Below, piece after piece: positions 17,897 through 41,458 of a DNA stretch of 64,000 bases. Every line of letters begins with the position of its first letter. The first letter of the stretch is position 1. This DNA is from Paenibacillus baekrokdamisoli (GTDB lineage: Bacteria; Bacillota; Bacilli; Paenibacillales; Paenibacillaceae). Position numbers and translations under genes: made by a program. The stretch lies in the NCBI RefSeq assembly GCF_003945345.1, contig NZ_AP019308.1, positions 1,054,001-1,118,000 on the forward strand, written 5' to 3'. The notes beneath the pieces are model-generated. The model saw only the letters and a list, made by a program, of their open reading frames with translations, had not been told where the DNA came from and made no database searches.

Positions 17897-17999
17897 CGGT
17901 TATAAAAAAGTGATGTCTTCCCAACAATAAGAGAGGCTTCAAGGAGCGAAGAAAAGCTTGCTTGAAGTAAAATTCTCATATTCTCAAGGAGGACAACAC

Positions 18000-18755
18000 G
18001 TGAACTCATCGAACCAACAAGGGAATTTCCAAAACCAGGGGTTATTCAATGCTCAGCAGCAACAATCCAATAATCAATCCAATGCGTATCAACCTCTGGG
18101 ATATGTGCAGTCGCACTATCAAGGAATTCCAAGTCAACAATCTTCAGGTGGTCCGGTCATTTCACATGTAGGCTATGCCGCTGGAACTCAGCAAGGTTAC
18201 GGTATGTCCTCGAACCAAGGCAATATGCAGCAACAACAACAGCAACAACAACAGCAACAACAACAGCAACAACATTCGGGATATAGTAATTTTGCCGGCA
18301 GCAACATATCTGCTGGTCCTGTTATCTCGCATGTAGGTTATACAGCTGGGCAGGATTTCCGCCCGTCACAATCACAAGGCTATAGCAATAACTATTCTAA
18401 CCAACAAGGTACTGCGAATTATTCGCAGCAGCAACCAGTGATCTCCCATTTGGGTTATACAGCTGGACCGAATTTCGCCCAATCTAACCAAACCCAAGGC
18501 CAATATTCGCAACAACAAAGCGGATTTGGTAATATGGGTGGAAACAACAGCATGGGTATGATCAACCAAAACCAGTTTGCTTCTAACGCACATGCAGTAA
18601 CCCAAAATAACCCGGTATACCAAGCAACGAATTCATCATCCAATGCTGGACCCGTGCTTTCTAGAGTGGGCTATTCCTCTGGGAACCAACAAAACGTTGC
18701 AGGTACTTACCAGCAATCCGGACAAAGCAATTATGGGATGAACCAACGTTTTTAG
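18000..18755 (+). CDS. Q/N-rich repeat protein with four GPVISHVGYTAG motifs (possible spore-surface protein)
   Basis: The GTG at 18000 is chosen because AAGGAGGA lies five bases upstream; the product is 251 residues. It is dominated by Gln, Asn, Ser, Gly and Tyr, with an uninterrupted run of 15 Gln at residues 77-91. Four copies of a 12-residue motif, [GQ]PV[IL]S[HR][VL]GY-x-x-G, lie at about 51-62, 106-117, 145-156 and 216-227. A weaker match (YQPLGYVQSHYQG) lies near residue 30. There is no signal peptide and no Cys. The composition is like prion-like or coat-matrix proteins. The function is unknown. Confidence 0.75.
   Translation: MNSSNQQGNFQNQGLFNAQQQQSNNQSNAYQPLGYVQSHYQGIPSQQSSGGPVISHVGYAAGTQQGYGMSSNQGNMQQQQQQQQQQQQQQQHSGYSNFAGSNISAGPVISHVGYTAGQDFRPSQSQGYSNNYSNQQGTANYSQQQPVISHLGYTAGPNFAQSNQTQGQYSQQQSGFGNMGGNNSMGMINQNQFASNAHAVTQNNPVYQATNSSSNAGPVLSRVGYSSGNQQNVAGTYQQSGQSNYGMNQRF
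18228..18272 (+). repeat. CAG/CAA microsatellite coding for 15 Gln
   Basis: Fifteen Gln codons are arranged as a 12-base unit (CAG CAA CAA CAA) repeated nearly four times, in frame inside the Q/N-rich gene. The regular unit suggests slipped-strand length variation in 12-base steps, which keeps the frame. Confidence 0.85.
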
Positions 18756-18959: not shown

Positions 18960-20843
18960 ATGAACATCATGGGTCACTTGCAGCAGTTGGGACGGTCTTT
19001 AATGCTGCCGACCATCGTGCTGCCAGGCGCCGCCGTTTTTCTTAGCTTAAGTGCCTTGCCTTGGGCAAGTATGGGAATTCCAAGTATGCACAACTATTTG
19101 CAGACTGCAGGAGAAGCGATATTTTCGTTTCTGCCTTATTTGTTTGCCTTTGGTGTTGCCATGGGGATGACTAGCAATGCGGGTACCGCGGGACTTGCTG
19201 CATTAGCGGGCATGTTTATCTATACAGGTATTATCAATTCAAGCCATTATGAGCTTGAGCCCACGGTGTTTACTGGGGTTATTATCGGTATTGTCACCAG
19301 TATATTTAATGAACGATTCAAAACCATTAAGTTTCCTGAATATATCCAATTCTTTGGTGGACCTCGATTTGTGCCGCTTGCTATGAGTCTATTCTCAGCG
19401 GTTTGGGCGATTATTATGGTTCAGCTTGCACCTAGCTTACATCATGCATTAATAGGTTTAGGTGATATCGTCTCCTCCGGTGGAGGCTTTGGCGTTTTCT
19501 TATTCGGTTTTGTCCTCCGGATATTAGTCGTATTCGGTCTACACCATCTGGTTAGTCACGTATTCTGGTTCCAAGTCGGTGGATTCCAGTTGCCTGATGG
19601 GGTCATGGTCTTTGGTGATCTGCCTCGTTTTTTTGCCGGAGATCCATCTGCAGGTGCATTTATGGCTGGCTTGTATCCGACGATGATGTTCGCGCTGCCG
19701 GCGATCGCGTTTGCCATTATCCATGAAGCACGCGAGGATTTAAAACCGAAAATTCGCAAAACCTTTCTCACAGCTGCGCTTGCCTCATTCCTCACGGGAG
19801 TAACGGAGCCGATTGAATTTGCTTTCTTATTCGTTGCACCCTACTTATTCGTTATTCATGCGCTTTTATCTGGGTTAATGATGTGGATTACCTATGAACT
19901 TGGTATTCGTTCTGGATTTTCTTATTCGGCAGGCGCTATTGATTTTCTTATTAATGAGCATTTAGCGACGCGAGGTTGGCTGCTAATCCCGATTGGGCTC
20001 GTTTTCGGTGCTCTTTATTATGGATTTTTCCGTTGGGCGATTCGCCGGTTTCGTATACCGACGCCAGGAAGGGAAGAGGGTTCACAGCTTGATGAGTGGG
20101 CAGGGGACATTCCTTACCGCGCACCACTTATTTTACAGGCAATCGGGGGCAAAGATAATATCGTACAGATGGAAGCTTGTATCACGAGACTCCGTCTGAA
20201 GGTATCCAGTGATAAGCTGATCGATATTAATGCGCTAAAACATTTGGGTGCTGCAGGTGTCATAAGACTTGGCGGTGGCAATGTTCAGATCGTATTCGGC
20301 ACTTATTCAGAGCTTATTCGCGAGGAAATGGACAAAGCCATCCGCCGTGATATATCGAGGGTCTTATTCTGTTCACCCGTGCAAGGAAGAATGCTCCCGC
20401 TTAGCGAGGTGCCTGACCCCATATTTGCAGGTAAGTTGGTCGGGGATGGGGTAGCGTTCATTCCTGATAAAGGGGAATTGGTTTCTCCGGTGCTTGGAAA
20501 AGTCATTCACGTCTATCCTTCCATGCATGCAATCGGAATTCGTACACCAGAGGGGCTTGATGTCCTGCTTCACATTGGTATTGATACTTCGCAATTAAAG
20601 GGTACGGGCTTTAAGTCTGTCGTCAACGAGGGCGATCAGGTTAAGCCAGGTCAATTACTCATCAAATTTGATTTGCCTTATATCCGTAAAGCCAGCAAAT
20701 CACTCGCCACTCCGATGGTGATAACGAATTCGGATCGAGTAAGCTCTTGGAGCTTTGCTCCGTTTAAAGGGGTCAAACGGGGTCAAGCATCTGTGATGTC
20801 TGTCGTTTTAAAAGAGAGAAGCGGTGGAGGGGAAACGGTATGA
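18960..20843 (+). CDS. PTS EIICBA component, glucose / N-acetylglucosamine family
   Basis: A 627-residue membrane transporter with three fused domains. EIIC (about 1-375) has the N-terminus MNIMGHLQQLGRSLMLP, many membrane helices, the GVTEPIEF signature and SAGAIDF. EIIB (about 390-470) has the phospho-Cys in MEACITRLRL. EIIA (about 485-625) has the two active-site His in SMHAIGI and LLHIGIDT. The EIIC sequence is closer in feel to NagE (GlcNAc) than to PtsG, so the sugar is not settled. It imports and phosphorylates the sugar using phosphate from HPr. Its stop overlaps ptsI by four bases, but no ptsH lies nearby. Confidence 0.88.
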   Translation: MNIMGHLQQLGRSLMLPTIVLPGAAVFLSLSALPWASMGIPSMHNYLQTAGEAIFSFLPYLFAFGVAMGMTSNAGTAGLAALAGMFIYTGIINSSHYELEPTVFTGVIIGIVTSIFNERFKTIKFPEYIQFFGGPRFVPLAMSLFSAVWAIIMVQLAPSLHHALIGLGDIVSSGGGFGVFLFGFVLRILVVFGLHHLVSHVFWFQVGGFQLPDGVMVFGDLPRFFAGDPSAGAFMAGLYPTMMFALPAIAFAIIHEAREDLKPKIRKTFLTAALASFLTGVTEPIEFAFLFVAPYLFVIHALLSGLMMWITYELGIRSGFSYSAGAIDFLINEHLATRGWLLIPIGLVFGALYYGFFRWAIRRFRIPTPGREEGSQLDEWAGDIPYRAPLILQAIGGKDNIVQMEACITRLRLKVSSDKLIDINALKHLGAAGVIRLGGGNVQIVFGTYSELIREEMDKAIRRDISRVLFCSPVQGRMLPLSEVPDPIFAGKLVGDGVAFIPDKGELVSPVLGKVIHVYPSMHAIGIRTPEGLDVLLHIGIDTSQLKGTGFKSVVNEGDQVKPGQLLIKFDLPYIRKASKSLATPMVITNSDRVSSWSFAPFKGVKRGQASVMSVVLKERSGGGETV

Positions 20844-22594
20844 TTCAAGGAATTGGAGCTTCTTCGGGAATAGCAATCGGCAAAGCATTCGTACTGCCTA
20901 ACTGGGAATGGGACTTGCCAGAGCAGAAAATCGATGTTGGCGATTTAGCCCGTGAGTTTGAACGTCTGTATGAAGGCATCCGTACATCCAAGGTTGAAAT
21001 TGAACAAATGAAGGATGAGCTGCGCGAAGTTGTTGGCACGGAGGAAAGCTATATTTTCGATGCGCATCTGGCGATTTTAGACGATCCGGTATTTATGAAT
21101 GAAATACAAGGCATTATTCAACGGCAATACAAAGCAGCAGAAGTAGCAGTTAAAGAGGTCATTGATCATTTTGTGACCATGTTTGATCTGCTGGATGACG
21201 AATATATGAAGGAACGAGCAATTGACATTAAGGATGTTGGCAACCGTCTTCTCAAACATTTGTTAGGTGCTCCTGAGATTACGTTGCCTTCTGATACACA
21301 GCCGTTTATTCTGGTTGCCAAGGAGCTTTCTCCCTCGCAGTTGGTTCATCTGAATACGAATCATGTTCTCGGTATTGCGACTTTGGTTGGAAGTACGACT
21401 TCACATTCCTCCATCATGGCTCGTGCATTAGGCATACCGCTTGTTGTAGGGATCGAAACAAAGATGATGGAGGATGTCATACAGACCGGGGATTCTATCA
21501 TCATTGATGGCGACAAAGGTGTCGTACATTTGGATCCTGAGGATCATCTAATAAGAGAATATACAGAGCTGCAGCATCTTAATAATGAAGCGACTGTTCG
21601 GTTAAAAGGTATCGTGAGCGTTCGTCCGGTTACTAAAGACGGAAAAGAAATGGAGCTTGGGGCTAATATAAGCTCTTTGAAGGAGCTGGATGTTGCTTTA
21701 GCGAGCGGTACTAACGGAGTTGGATTGTTCCGAACGGAATTCTTATATATGGATCGTAACCGGCTTCCGCTGGAAGATGAGCAATATGAGGTTTACCGTA
21801 CAGTTGCCGAGAAGCTTGAGGGTCGACCTCTAATCATTCGTACGCTTGATATCGGAGGGGATAAAAACTTAGATTATTTCGAGCTTCCTGAGGAAGAGAA
21901 TCCATTTCTAGGCTACCGCGCGATTCGAATTTGTTTGGATAAAACCGATTTGTTTAAAACGCAGCTAAAAGCAATTCTTAGGGCAAGCAGCCATGGGAAG
22001 GTCAAAATTATGTATCCGCTCATTTCCTCGGTCGAAGAAGTTGTTGCGGCTAATAAACTGCTTGAGGAATCCAAGCAAGAATTACAAGCGGAAGGGCTCT
22101 CCTACGATGCTGACATTGAAGTGGGGATTATGATTGAACTGCCTGCTGCGGTTATGATAGCAGATATGCTGGCGGAGGAAGTTGATTTTTTCAGTATTGG
22201 TACCAATGATCTCGTACAGTTCACATTGGCGGTTGATCGAATGAACGAGCAAATCTCACACTTGTATGAGCCTTATCATCCTGCTGTGCTCCGTATGCTG
22301 AAATTAACGATTGAAGCGGCCAAACGAGCCGGTATACATATTGGCGTGTGCGGAGAGCTGGCTGGGGATATTGATGCACTACCGATCTGGCTCGCCCTTG
22401 ATGTTGACGAGCTCAGTATGTCGGCACATGCCATTCTGCCGATAAAAGAACGGCTAATCCGCCTCAATCAGCAGGATAGCCGTTCGTTATTTGAACAATT
22501 ATTGCAATGTCGGACGAGCGAGCAGATTCATAAAGAACTATCTGTATTTCAAAGCAAGCTTGATATCCTTGACAAGGCATCATCCTTACATTAG
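20840..22594 (+). CDS. ptsI: PTS enzyme I (PEP-protein phosphotransferase)
   Basis: The 584-residue enzyme takes phosphate from PEP and passes it to HPr. The N-terminal part is the HPr-binding helical domain. The active His lies in the swivelling domain, GSTTSHSSIMARALGIP (about residues 185-201). The C-terminal PEP-binding barrel carries LFRTEFLYMDR, LDIGGDKNLDY, MIELPAA and the cysteine motif GVCGELAGD. The length is normal. It is translationally coupled to the EIICBA gene by ATGA. Unlike the usual ptsH-ptsI pair, no true HPr gene is adjacent. Confidence 0.95.
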   Translation: MIQGIGASSGIAIGKAFVLPNWEWDLPEQKIDVGDLAREFERLYEGIRTSKVEIEQMKDELREVVGTEESYIFDAHLAILDDPVFMNEIQGIIQRQYKAAEVAVKEVIDHFVTMFDLLDDEYMKERAIDIKDVGNRLLKHLLGAPEITLPSDTQPFILVAKELSPSQLVHLNTNHVLGIATLVGSTTSHSSIMARALGIPLVVGIETKMMEDVIQTGDSIIIDGDKGVVHLDPEDHLIREYTELQHLNNEATVRLKGIVSVRPVTKDGKEMELGANISSLKELDVALASGTNGVGLFRTEFLYMDRNRLPLEDEQYEVYRTVAEKLEGRPLIIRTLDIGGDKNLDYFELPEEENPFLGYRAIRICLDKTDLFKTQLKAILRASSHGKVKIMYPLISSVEEVVAANKLLEESKQELQAEGLSYDADIEVGIMIELPAAVMIADMLAEEVDFFSIGTNDLVQFTLAVDRMNEQISHLYEPYHPAVLRMLKLTIEAAKRAGIHIGVCGELAGDIDALPIWLALDVDELSMSAHAILPIKERLIRLNQQDSRSLFEQLLQCRTSEQIHKELSVFQSKLDILDKASSLH

Positions 22595-24602: not shown

Positions 24603-24673
24603 TATTTTGTCGTATCATTACGATAAAGTAATACGGCGCGAGATAAAAATTTGAACTAATGGAGAGAAGGACC

Positions 24674-25681
24674 GTGACGGTAACCATTTATGATGTAGCA
24701 AGAGAAGCAGGCGTTTCGATGGCGACGGTTTCGCGGGTTGTTAATAATAACCCGAACGTGAAACCTCAGACGCGGAAGAAAGTATTTGAAGCAATCGAAC
24801 GACTCGGCTATCGTCCGAATGCGGTTGCACGCGGCTTAGCAAGCAAAAAAACGACGACTGTCGGAGTAGTCATTCCTGACATATCCAATGCAATCTTTGC
24901 AGAAGTTGCACGAGGCATTGAAGATATTGCCAATATGTATCACTACAATATTATTTTGTGTAATGCGGATAAGAAGAAAGACAAAGAGATCCGTGTTATT
25001 AACACACTGCTTGAGAAACAAGTGGATGGTCTTTTATTTATGGGCGGAGCAGTTACGGACGAGCATTTGCAAGCTTTCAAAACAGCCAATGTTCCGATTG
25101 TTTTATGTGCGACGACTGACGAGAACGGTTCGATTCCATCTGTGGATATCGATCATGAAAGTGCTGCATTTGACGCTGTTCAGACACTCATTAAGCAAGG
25201 GCACCGTTCGATTGCGATGATTGGCGGTACACTTCAGGATCCAGCTAACGGTTATTCGCGTTTTCAAGGCTACAAGCGGGCGCTTGAAACGGCTGGGATT
25301 ACGTATGATGAGAACATGGTGCGAATCGGGAATTATCGTTATGAGTCCGGTGTTGAAGCCATGAAATATTTCCTTGAGCTGGCAGAGAAACCTTCTGCTG
25401 TATTCTCAGCTACAGATGAAATGGCGATCGGTGCGATTCATGCCATTCAAGATGCTGGTCTGAAGGTACCAGAAGATATTTCCGTTATTAGCGTGGATAA
25501 CAGCCGTATGGCTTCTATGGTTAGACCACAGCTAACTACTGTTGCACAGCCGATGTACGATATTGGTGCCGTATCTATGCGACTCTTAACTAAACTTATG
25601 AAGAAAGAGTCTGTTGAGAATCCGAGGGTTGTTCTTCCACATGAAGTTATCACTCGACAGTCTGTTGGCAATAAAGAATGA
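24674..25681 (+). CDS. ccpA: Catabolite control protein A
   Basis: A 335-residue LacI/GalR-family regulator. The GTG at 24674 is preferred because GGAGAG lies seven bases upstream and the family begins [20 protein letters not shown]. The N-terminal helix-turn-helix is followed by the hinge helix [17 protein letters not shown]. The core domain holds the HPr-Ser-P contact surface. CcpA with seryl-phosphorylated HPr binds cre sites to repress or activate carbon genes. Nearby candidate targets are acsA and gnd. Its stop overlaps the mtnN start by four bases. Confidence 0.95.
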
Positions 25682-39522: not shown

Positions 39523-39592
39523 GTGACGTGCAACCGTGGTGAAAAAGTGTTAGGATTAAAAGGAAGCCATGAATTCAGGAGGAAATAATAAG

Positions 39593-40708
39593 ATGCGTGA
39601 TCAACGTTTACAAATTTTAGCGAGCAATTTGGTTCGTTATTCCATTGATGTTCAACCTGGAGAAAACGTTCTAATCGATATGACTGGTTCGGAACGCGAA
39701 TTAGTAAAATGTTTAATTGAAGAAGTTGCCAAACGCGGAGGTCGTCCCTTTGTTGAGACAAGCGACCGTTCCGTACTTCGTAAAATGCTGCAGCATGCAA
39801 CCAAGGAACAAATGGAGCTATGGGCTTCCTTTGATCTGAAACGAATGGAAGCCATGGACGGCTATATTGCTATCCGTGCTGGAGAGAATGTAAATGAGCT
39901 TGCAGACGTACCGAGCGAAAATATGCGTTTATATGAGCAACTGTACCGTCATCCAATACATTCCGAAGAGCGCGTGAAACGTACCAAATGGGTCGTACTA
40001 CGTTATCCGAATGCCTCGATGGCCCAAGCTGCCAATATGAGTACAGAAGCGTTTGAAGACTTCTACTTTAATGTTTGCAATTTGGATTATGCCAAGATGG
40101 ATAAAGCAATGGATCCTTTGGAGCAGCTGATGTCGAAGACAGATCGGGTTCGAATTGTAGCTCCAGGAACAGATTTAACATTCTCCATTAAAAATATTGG
40201 AGCTAAAAAATGCTCCGGTCATCGCAACATCCCGGATGGTGAAGTATTTAGCGCACCTGTCCGTGACTCCGTCCAAGGAACGATTACGTATAATACGCCT
40301 TCCGTCTATTCGGGCGTTACGTTCGAGAACATTTCATTCACCTTCATGGATGGTAAGATCGTTGAAGCAACTAGCAATGATACGAAGAAGTTGAACGAAA
40401 TTCTCGATATGGATGAGGGCTCACGATATGTTGGTGAATTCGCAATCGGTTTTAATCCATATATATTGAATCCATTGAAAGATATCTTATTTGATGAGAA
40501 GATCGCAGGCAGTCTGCATTTCACACCGGGTCAGGCTTATGAAGAGACGGATAACGGCAATCGTTCAGCTGTCCACTGGGATCTTGTCCTTATACAGCGT
40601 CCTGAACATGGCGGTGGAGAGATCTATTTTGATGATCGTTTGATCCGTAAAGACGGAATATTCGTCATTCCGGAGCTAGAAGCGCTAAATCCGGAAAATT
40701 TGCTGTAA
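39593..40708 (+). CDS. M29 family aminopeptidase (AmpS/PepS type)
   Basis: A 371-residue metallo-aminopeptidase. ATG 39593 is preferred because AGGAGGA lies nine bases upstream; an ATG at 39569 lacks an RBS. Family sections: YSIDVQPGENVLIDMTG at the N-terminus, GTDLTFSIK, the metal-site region NIPDGEVFSAPV, EFAIGFNPYI and SAVHWDLVL near the C-terminus. The conserved Glu, His, Tyr and Asp residues appear present. It removes N-terminal amino acids from peptides in the cytoplasm. Confidence 0.92.
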   Translation: MRDQRLQILASNLVRYSIDVQPGENVLIDMTGSERELVKCLIEEVAKRGGRPFVETSDRSVLRKMLQHATKEQMELWASFDLKRMEAMDGYIAIRAGENVNELADVPSENMRLYEQLYRHPIHSEERVKRTKWVVLRYPNASMAQAANMSTEAFEDFYFNVCNLDYAKMDKAMDPLEQLMSKTDRVRIVAPGTDLTFSIKNIGAKKCSGHRNIPDGEVFSAPVRDSVQGTITYNTPSVYSGVTFENISFTFMDGKIVEATSNDTKKLNEILDMDEGSRYVGEFAIGFNPYILNPLKDILFDEKIAGSLHFTPGQAYEETDNGNRSAVHWDLVLIQRPEHGGGEIYFDDRLIRKDGIFVIPELEALNPENLL

Positions 40709-40783
40709 ATAGCCTCTTGAATAGCGGTGAGAATCGGGTTATGATGTAGGCAGTTAGTCAAAGTAATTACTGGAGGGATTCCC

Positions 40784-41026
40784 ATGTCTAATAACACGGC
40801 AATTATTGATATTTCCCAAACGGCCAACAAATTTCGGTCGTCAATCGTTCTTCAAGCCGAGAATAAATATATCGACGTCAAAAGTATTCTCGGATTATTT
40901 ACAACTTTAGTCGGCGGACTTTCCTACGAGCTGCATGTTCATGGACCTGATGCTGATGAGGCTAAAGTAGCAATGGCAGAAGTGTTCGAGAAACATAATC
41001 TCGATATCAAAGTAGTAGCTGAATAA
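40784..41026 (+). CDS. HPr-like protein lacking the phospho-histidine
   Basis: An 80-residue protein with RBS GGAGG. From ISQTANKF to the end it follows HPr: SSIVLQAENKYIDVKSILGL matches the strand-helix region around HPr Ser46, and GPDADEAKVAMAEVFEK matches the last helix. The N-terminal loop of HPr (GxHARPA, with His15) is missing, so the first residues run straight into the helix. The serine (Ser34 here) in DVKSILGL is kept. It therefore cannot carry PTS phosphate in the normal way but might be an HPr kinase target, like Crh. A terminator follows. The role is unknown. Confidence 0.8.
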   Translation: MSNNTAIIDISQTANKFRSSIVLQAENKYIDVKSILGLFTTLVGGLSYELHVHGPDADEAKVAMAEVFEKHNLDIKVVAE

Positions 41027-41043
41027 TTCAATGGTTTAGAGTC

Positions 41044-41086
41044 AAAGCGCTTCGCTGTGTAAATCAGCGGAGCGCTTTGTTGTTTT
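41044..41086 (+). terminator. Terminator of the HPr-like gene
   Basis: Stem AAAGCGCTtCGCTG / CAGCGgAGCGCTTT followed by GTTGTTTT. Confidence 0.82.
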
Positions 41087-41164: not shown

Positions 41165-41458
41165 ATGTCTTCATCCGATGTTCTCATTCATCTGCATCAA
41201 AAAGCGCTTAATCTCCTTCAAGAAGATGCCTTCAAAATCGAAAAGCTGATCGAAGTACAAATGGAAAATTTGGCGACGAGAAAATGTCCACTCTATGAAG
41301 AAGTGTTGGACACGCAAATATACGGTTTTTCCAGAGAAATCGATTTTGCAATTCGGGCAGGACTTGTGGCAGAGGCGACCGGCAAAGATATAATTAATAA
41401 GCTGGAACGAAATTTAGCTACGCTGTATGAAGCTCTAGAAATGAACAATGGCATGTAA
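41165..41458 (+). CDS. ylaN: YlaN family protein (UPF0358)
   Basis: A 97-residue all-helical protein with the YlaN pattern: ALNLLQEDAFKIEKLIEVQMENLATRKCPLYEEVLDTQIYGFSREIDFAIR. In B. subtilis and S. aureus YlaN is linked to iron homeostasis and Fur. In B. subtilis it lies next to ftsW, and here ftsW is two genes away on the opposite strand, which is partly conserved synteny. RBS GGGGGAG precedes the ATG. Confidence 0.93.
   Translation: MSSSDVLIHLHQKALNLLQEDAFKIEKLIEVQMENLATRKCPLYEEVLDTQIYGFSREIDFAIRAGLVAEATGKDIINKLERNLATLYEALEMNNGM

Follow-up and report, generated by a model that had tools for sequence, protein, structure and literature searches.

Can a protein of the HPr family that has no phosphocarrier histidine still take part in carbon regulation? 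The question is raised by a short gene of Paenibacillus baekrokdamisoli located on the forward strand at 40784..41026 of the window, by which we mean the whole 64,000-nucleotide stretch of DNA that was analyzed. The gene encodes an 80-residue, His-less and β1-less HPr-fold protein, here called HPrL (MSNNTAIIDISQTANKFRSSIVLQAENKYIDVKSILGLFTTLVGGLSYELHVHGPDADEAKVAMAEVFEKHNLDIKVVAE), and the codon for Ser34, the equivalent of Ser46 of HPr, lies at 40883-40885 on the same strand. Automatic annotation, as seen in two plasmid annotations, labels this type of protein 'HPr family phosphocarrier protein'. We consider, with a probability of about one half, that HPrL, instead of carrying phosphate, regulates carbon metabolism in a Crh-like way through its serine alone; its phosphorylation and its partners are what we infer in this reading. 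Searches of the open-access literature for this family and for Paenibacillus HPr listed no paper describing HPrL.

The initial annotation had aligned the protein with HPr by eye and matched its DVKSILGL segment to the Ser46 region, and both assignments are borne out. HPrL scores 30.7 bits against PF00381 (PTS-HPr; cut-off 23), with residues 10-69 covering profile positions 21-80, and DVKSILGL falls on the Ser46 segment of HPr without gaps at an offset of 12. Four NCBIfam HPr models are also touched by HPrL, none of them at its curated cut-off: TIGR01003 (HPr family) gives 30.5 bits under a cut-off of 47.9, and NF010354 (PRK13782, 'HPr family phosphocarrier protein'), which we take to be the model linked to Crh, gives 31.1 bits under a cut-off of 123. 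A phmmer search of the PDB found HPr (E 5e-6) and Crh (E 2.5e-4), with alignments that begin at HPr residue 22-23. Gapless and structural alignments place HPrL residues 3-5 (Asn-Asn-Thr) opposite His15-Ala16-Arg17 of HPr; the protein starts at about HPr residue 13, and HPr residues 1-12, which form strand β1, are missing. GxHARPA is thus absent, as first noted, but the loss is larger than the loop to which it had been ascribed: HPrL has no internal loop deletion, the whole N-terminus (β1 plus active-centre loop) is missing, and a C-terminal strand is predicted in addition. The initial annotation had also seen no upstream start that would restore the HARPA loop, and this holds for the family. 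No H[ATS]RP peptide was found upstream in frame, or within 150 nt upstream in the three same-strand frames, for any of 138 distinct orthologue CDS, and no H[ATS]R within the first 14 residues of the 138 orthologues.

The predicted fold agrees with this picture. An AlphaFold2 model of HPrL built with 35 related sequences (pLDDT 89) contains the elements α3-14, β20-25, β28-31, α35-41, β47-53, α57-70, and β74-77. HPr itself follows the order β1-loop-αA-β2-β3-αB-β4-αC, relative to which the model has no β1 and no active-centre loop, keeps helix A, and gains a C-terminal strand. Foldseek comparison of the model with the PDB returned HPr (1ptf) as the best match (E 2.6e-5, TMq 0.75) and Crh (1mo1) as a close second (E 8.8e-5), so that the comparison with these two structures, suggested at the outset, speaks for an HPr-like fold of the predicted model. 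VIA-align superimposed 74 residues on HPr 1pch with a Z of 12.2 and an rmsd of 1.8, pairing model residues 1-74 with HPr 11-87. Further VIA-align matches that spanned residues 1-80, to a mini-binder, a ZnT C-terminal domain, and a NifU-like protein (Z 4-6), were taken as common arrangements. The C-terminal strand, itself predicted, probably fills the edge position of β1 beside β4, a placement we infer from the model.

We examined conservation in an orthologue set of 138 distinct genes encoding 120 distinct proteins. Ser34, whose conservation had been proposed as a check, is Ser in all 138 orthologue CDS and in 11 of 11 divergent paralogues. Its codon in the 138 genes is AGC or AGT only and never TCN, so the identity of the serine has not been kept across a two-step codon change, which counts against a regulatory serine. 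Among the 120 proteins, A14, S19, S20, V22, L23, K28, I30, D31, V32, K33, S34, L36, G37, L38, L42, Y48, L50, H51, H53, G54, D56, A60, and F68 are invariant, and Y29 (96%) and E49 (93%) are nearly so. The hydrophobic patch is kept in HPrL as I35, L36, and F39 in place of I47, M48, and M51 of HPr. The residue facing His15 is distributed as N104 K6 D3 G3 T2 H1 A1, and that facing Arg17 as A97 T12 E5 S2 Q2 N1 D1, with Arg in none of the 120. A His occurs within residues 1-12 of two proteins; in L158 it occupies the His15 position, with no Ala-Arg-Pro after it, and no equivalent of a His-x-Arg pair occurs in the 120 HPrL orthologues. Compared with the window gene, 59 equal-length genes gave a median dN/dS of 0.042, a value that suggests purifying selection on HPrL, although only 8 pairs were unsaturated.

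HPrL appears to be expressed from its own transcription unit. A promoter-like TTGAAT-17-TATGAT sequence, found by promoter scan, lies at 40717..40745 (+), a site that is weak alone (1 found at HPrL vs. 1.5 in shuffles). Across the orthologues, 50% of 120 upstream regions have a promoter-like site scoring at least 9, vs. 13% of mononucleotide shuffles. The ribosome-binding site GGAGGG (40772..40777, +) ends 6 nt before the ATG, and GGAGG-type sites are found upstream of orthologues too. An intrinsic terminator with a 15-pair stem and a T-rich tail (41043..41079, +) lies between HPrL and the downstream gene; a terminator-like structure is present after 114 of 120 orthologues vs. 65 of 360 shuffles. 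Given these promoter-like sites and terminators, HPrL looks monocistronic. A cre-like element matching 12 of 13 letters occurs upstream of 14 of 120 orthologues, many from related lineages, vs. 0.5% of mononucleotide shuffles; in two of them (L076 and L080) it sits just before the -10 hexamer. Upstream of the window HPrL, no cre-like match was found when one mismatch was allowed.

The flanking gene order is largely kept. Upstream lies an aminopeptidase gene (39569..40708, +), which we read as M29-type and whose counterpart is annotated 'aminopeptidase' elsewhere; among 138 distinct loci, it shares the strand of HPrL in 125 and is inverted in 6. Downstream lies the gene for YlaN (DUF1507; 41165..41458, +; PF07408, 125.9 bits), found on the same strand within 1.5 kb in all 138 distinct loci, including those where the aminopeptidase is inverted. 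Genes for Asp23 and FtsW further along are also widely kept near HPrL.

HPrL is nearly universal in its order, which the NCBI taxonomy line gives as Bacillales and which we take to be Paenibacillales in GTDB terms. Orthologues of 64-100% identity occur in 56 of 59 relatives, the window genome included, and in 387 of 392 genomes order-wide at E <= 1e-18; the five order genomes without one are G037, G045, G051, G736 (1.4 Mb), and G846. In G037, G045, and G051, sequence and profile searches found matches at the level of ordinary HPr only, and the aminopeptidase gene adjoins ylaN with no HPrL between. Since G051 and the HPrL-bearing G044 belong to one family, at least one of these three absences is probably a loss. 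In a class search, 27 of 299 genomes were of the same family and all had HPrL; among the other 272, only G225 and G206 exceeded 40 bits, both at about 45% identity, and the many matches below 38 bits were taken as ordinary HPr. In a phylum search at E <= 1e-10, 7 of 398 genomes exceeded 130 bits, every one a member of the same family; six further genomes gave 7 matches at 42-48 bits, which were likewise taken as ordinary HPr. The named matches (80 of 323) come from species of Paenibacillus and Cohnella and from one further bacterium of the Paenibacillaceae.

We next consider the phosphotransferase and catabolite-control genes among which HPrL would act. As the initial annotation had observed, the window encodes a PTS enzyme I (EI) without an adjacent HPr (20840..22594, +) as well as CcpA (24659..25681, +), the latter keeping the R-L-L-T-K segment of B. 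subtilis CcpA. A poly-glutamine-rich repetitive ORF (17958-18755) was also noted in the window just before the PTS glucose transporter. A search for a separate canonical HPr, also proposed initially, recovered three other HPr genes in the genome, at 5.03, 6.23, and 7.03 Mb, all with His15, so HPrL is not needed as a carrier. By our reading of the neighbors, one (L002) lies beside fructose/mannitol-type PTS genes and another (L003) beside a glucose/NAG-type PTS gene, and the genome's two other EI genes adjoin these two. The third (L001, 1477-1746) adjoins what we read as a yvcL-like gene, a neighbor that marks the position of crh in Bacillus, and yet keeps His15. HPr of the L001 type occurs in all 59 relatives, and 21 of the 22 genomes belonging to the genus share an identical sequence, which makes it more conserved overall than HPrL; these bacteria probably use it as their principal HPr.

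HprK, EI, and CcpA are each likewise present in 59 of 59 relatives, including the three that lack HPrL (G037, G045, and G051), so HPrL is not required by the HPr/HprK/EI/CcpA machinery, and co-occurrence with any of these proteins is uninformative as a clue. The control for the HprK search was recovered in only 3 of 14 genomes and missed B. subtilis, which should have HprK, and we therefore relied on positives only. A second HprK-like gene (198-214 bits) was observed in 17 of 59 genomes; its overlap with the nine genomes that bear a second HPrL-like copy is 3, approximately that expected by chance.

This second copy, HPrL2, is 51-59% identical to HPrL and occurs in 9 of 59 relatives (HPrL2 loci: L144-L154, L208, L210-L230, L232, and L233). 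Several dozen genomes of the order have at least two family matches, and the context of HPrL2 was read from a 24-genome and an 11-locus set. In the first, divergent set of 11 loci (L144-L154; nine in the order and two outside), HPrL2 lies in TctCBA, malic enzyme, or permease clusters at five (L145, L146, L148, L151, and L152) and beside a sensor kinase, a response regulator, and GlpX at L144, making 6 of 11 in all; at L147, L149, L150, L153, and L154, none of the malate/tricarboxylate or kinase/regulator genes sought was found beside it. The second set was collected with one cluster-type HPrL2 query, which hit 24 of 392 order genomes at E <= 1e-23; one hit (L231) was the primary HPrL and was dropped. 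At 20 of the 23 remaining loci, malic enzyme, TctA/TctC, an AEC permease, or a kinase/regulator pair lies within about 1.5 kb, a proportion to be read knowing that the query came from such a cluster and favors close relatives and that some genomes are common to both sets; within the same distance, L215, L219, and L220 have no malic enzyme, Tct, AEC permease, or kinase/regulator genes. TctA, TctB, malic enzyme, permease, GlpX, sCache kinase, and DpiA-like regulator were identified by Pfam in one example each, and TctC is our reading. On a plasmid of Priestia megaterium, a copy with 48.6% identity lies near genes for a citrate:proton symporter and an isocitrate/isopropylmalate-dehydrogenase-family protein. 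Judged from sequence and gene order, these neighborhoods are the strongest clue to function, namely that the family may serve carbon, and particularly organic-acid, metabolism; the malate/tricarboxylate context of many HPrL2 copies speaks for a place in carbon metabolism and against a protein outside carbon regulation altogether.

The AlphaFold model of HPrL2 (20 sequences, some common to the HPrL alignment; pLDDT 92) has the same order of elements as that of HPrL and aligns with 1pch over 73 residues (Z 11.6, rmsd 1.6); in both models the first predicted element is helix A, from residue 3. Asp31 is kept in the 11 HPrL2 copies, which vary at position 39 (S9 Y1 T1), position 51 (E8 D2 H1), and position 53 (H9 Y1 N1). 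YlaN was found beside none of the 11 HPrL2 loci L144-L154. Two LacI-type queries detected a LacI-type regulator beside HPrL2 only on the Priestia plasmid among 12 loci, and that protein is unaligned to CcpA past query residue 299, which leaves the R-L-L-T-K region without an evident counterpart.

How might such a protein work? HPrL would descend from an HPr that lost its N-terminal strand and active-centre loop, with the C-terminal strand filling the gap. HprK phosphorylates Ser46 of HPr and Crh, and the nearly invariant β2-β3 hairpin and Ser34 helix of HPrL would correspond to this HprK target site. Depending on the glycolytic state, HprK/P would then phosphorylate or dephosphorylate Ser34, and a partner protein of carbon metabolism would be bound by one form and released by the other, on the pattern of methylglyoxal synthase, which is inhibited by Crh in its unphosphorylated form. 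HPrL2 would serve malate/tricarboxylate utilization likewise, a role proposed because its gene often sits in those clusters, and its candidate partners are the products of neighboring genes, namely malic enzyme or the proteins for malate/tricarboxylate uptake and sensing. Several points weigh against this proposal: HPr also docks on HprK through its loop, which is missing in HPrL; a purely structural need could explain the retention of Ser34, a helix N-capping residue; HPrL itself has no metabolic operon partner; and the cre-like element seen upstream of some orthologues does not precede the window copy. In favor, serine-only action on an enzyme has a reported precedent in Crh-MgsA: Crh can act both on CcpA and on the enzyme MgsA, and the unphosphorylated form inhibits methylglyoxal synthase until phosphorylation releases the inhibition (PMC9631020).

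Several other explanations must be weighed against a serine-only regulator. One, which we regard as doubtful, is that HPrL is the functional Crh of the order, with P-Ser34-HPrL serving as a CcpA corepressor parallel to P-Ser-HPr. Ser34 and the hydrophobic patch are kept, CcpA is present throughout the relatives with R-L-L-T-K retained in the window protein, and the HPr beside the yvcL-like gene keeps His15, so that the His-less role is vacant. Arg17 of HPr is a CcpA contact, however, and its equivalent is replaced in 120 of 120 proteins; with Arg17 and the loop gone, simple CcpA corepression by HPrL becomes less likely, and the lack of β1 and the existence of three genomes with CcpA, HPr, and HprK and without HPrL tell against it as well. 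The likeness to Crh raised by the initial annotation therefore survives in the lost histidine, the invariant serine, and the HPr/Crh-like fold and is weaker on the CcpA side. Binding of P-Ser-HPr or P-Ser-Crh by CcpA, with Arg304 of CcpA contacting Ser46-P, is described in PMC4591507. The window R-L-L-T-K corresponds to residues 303-307 of the aligned 3oqm chain, and Arg304 most likely falls within this segment if our numbering is right.

A role outside phospho-regulation, which we also judge unlikely, would make Ser34 a structural helix cap and HPrL a scaffold with a new open-sheet surface. Y29, D31, E49, H51, and H53 are near-fixed in the 120 proteins and, judging from strand alternation in the model rather than from coordinates, would lie on one side of the sheet; E49, H51, and H53 on β4 together with Y29 and D31 on β3 may form a binding surface specific to HPrL, and loss of the loop and Arg17 removes the known partner surfaces of HPr. 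Partners of P-Ser-HPr, on the other hand, read the KS-I-L-G-L patch, which in HPrL is also nearly invariant, beyond what a helix cap needs, and the variation of HPrL2 at positions 51 and 53 indicates that the surface is not family-wide. Far less probable is joint action with the neighboring YlaN (Fpa), which would link carbon state to iron regulation. It draws on the unbroken adjacency of the two genes, kept even where the aminopeptidase is inverted; in S. aureus, YlaN/Fpa is reported to bind Fe(II) and to relieve repression by Fur (PMC11559061). A terminator separates the two genes, Asp23 and FtsW are also widely kept nearby, so that adjacency can be plain synteny, and YlaN occurs in three genomes without HPrL and is missing from the 11 HPrL2 loci. 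Finally, the automatic label would fit if HPrL were an ordinary HPr whose start had been misread or whose gene was decaying, a reading to which we give almost no weight. The absence of an upstream HARP peptide in 138 genes led us to reject a misread start, and the near-invariant core, the low dN/dS, and the presence in 387 of 392 genomes a chance ORF or decaying copy.

Beyond the single protein, a more ambitious proposal can be put forward only tentatively, and we rate it below the regulator role of HPrL itself: a separate branch of the HPr fold, working by serine phosphorylation only, may inform central-carbon enzymes or transporters of the glycolytic state, with one copy near-universal in the order and one for malate/tricarboxylate. 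Its defining features would be the missing β1 and phospho-histidine loop, the added C-terminal strand, and an invariant D-x-K-S-x-L-G-L. If the serine-only reading is true, a protein that nearly every member of the Paenibacillus order has, and that carries the phosphocarrier label, would be a pure serine-phosphorylation signal, the two jobs of HPr would be separated more sharply than by Crh, and the nearly fixed sequence of HPrL would offer a minimal HprK substrate with which to define the requirements of the kinase outside the Ser46 patch. For HPrL2, the malate clusters provide a testable target set.

Compared with known systems, HPrL shares with HPr (PtsH) the fold from helix A to helix C and the K-S-I-x-G patch but has neither β1 nor the His15/Arg17 loop, and by its sequence it cannot be a PTS phosphocarrier. 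With Crh it shares the HPr fold, the missing catalytic histidine, and a serine at the regulatory position. Bacillus Crh, however, keeps β1 and the loop, with residue 15 substituted, whereas both are missing from HPrL, which is predicted to end in an extra strand; the Arg17 contact of Crh with CcpA is likewise absent (0 of 120). HPrL probably works in the manner of Crh, but since it fails these features of Crh, it should not be classed as Crh. In Parageobacillus, position 15 of Crh is Gln (PMC9631020). About 60 columns are aligned among the HPr paralogues, and they carry little phylogenetic signal, as PMC2405797 reports for HPr. A further counterpart is HPrL2, which is equally β1-less and His-less, with D-[VA]-K-S-x-L-G-L and a predicted C-terminal strand, and which differs from HPrL in its sporadic occurrence, its frequent location in malic enzyme, TctABC, or two-component clusters, and its residues at positions 39 and 51.
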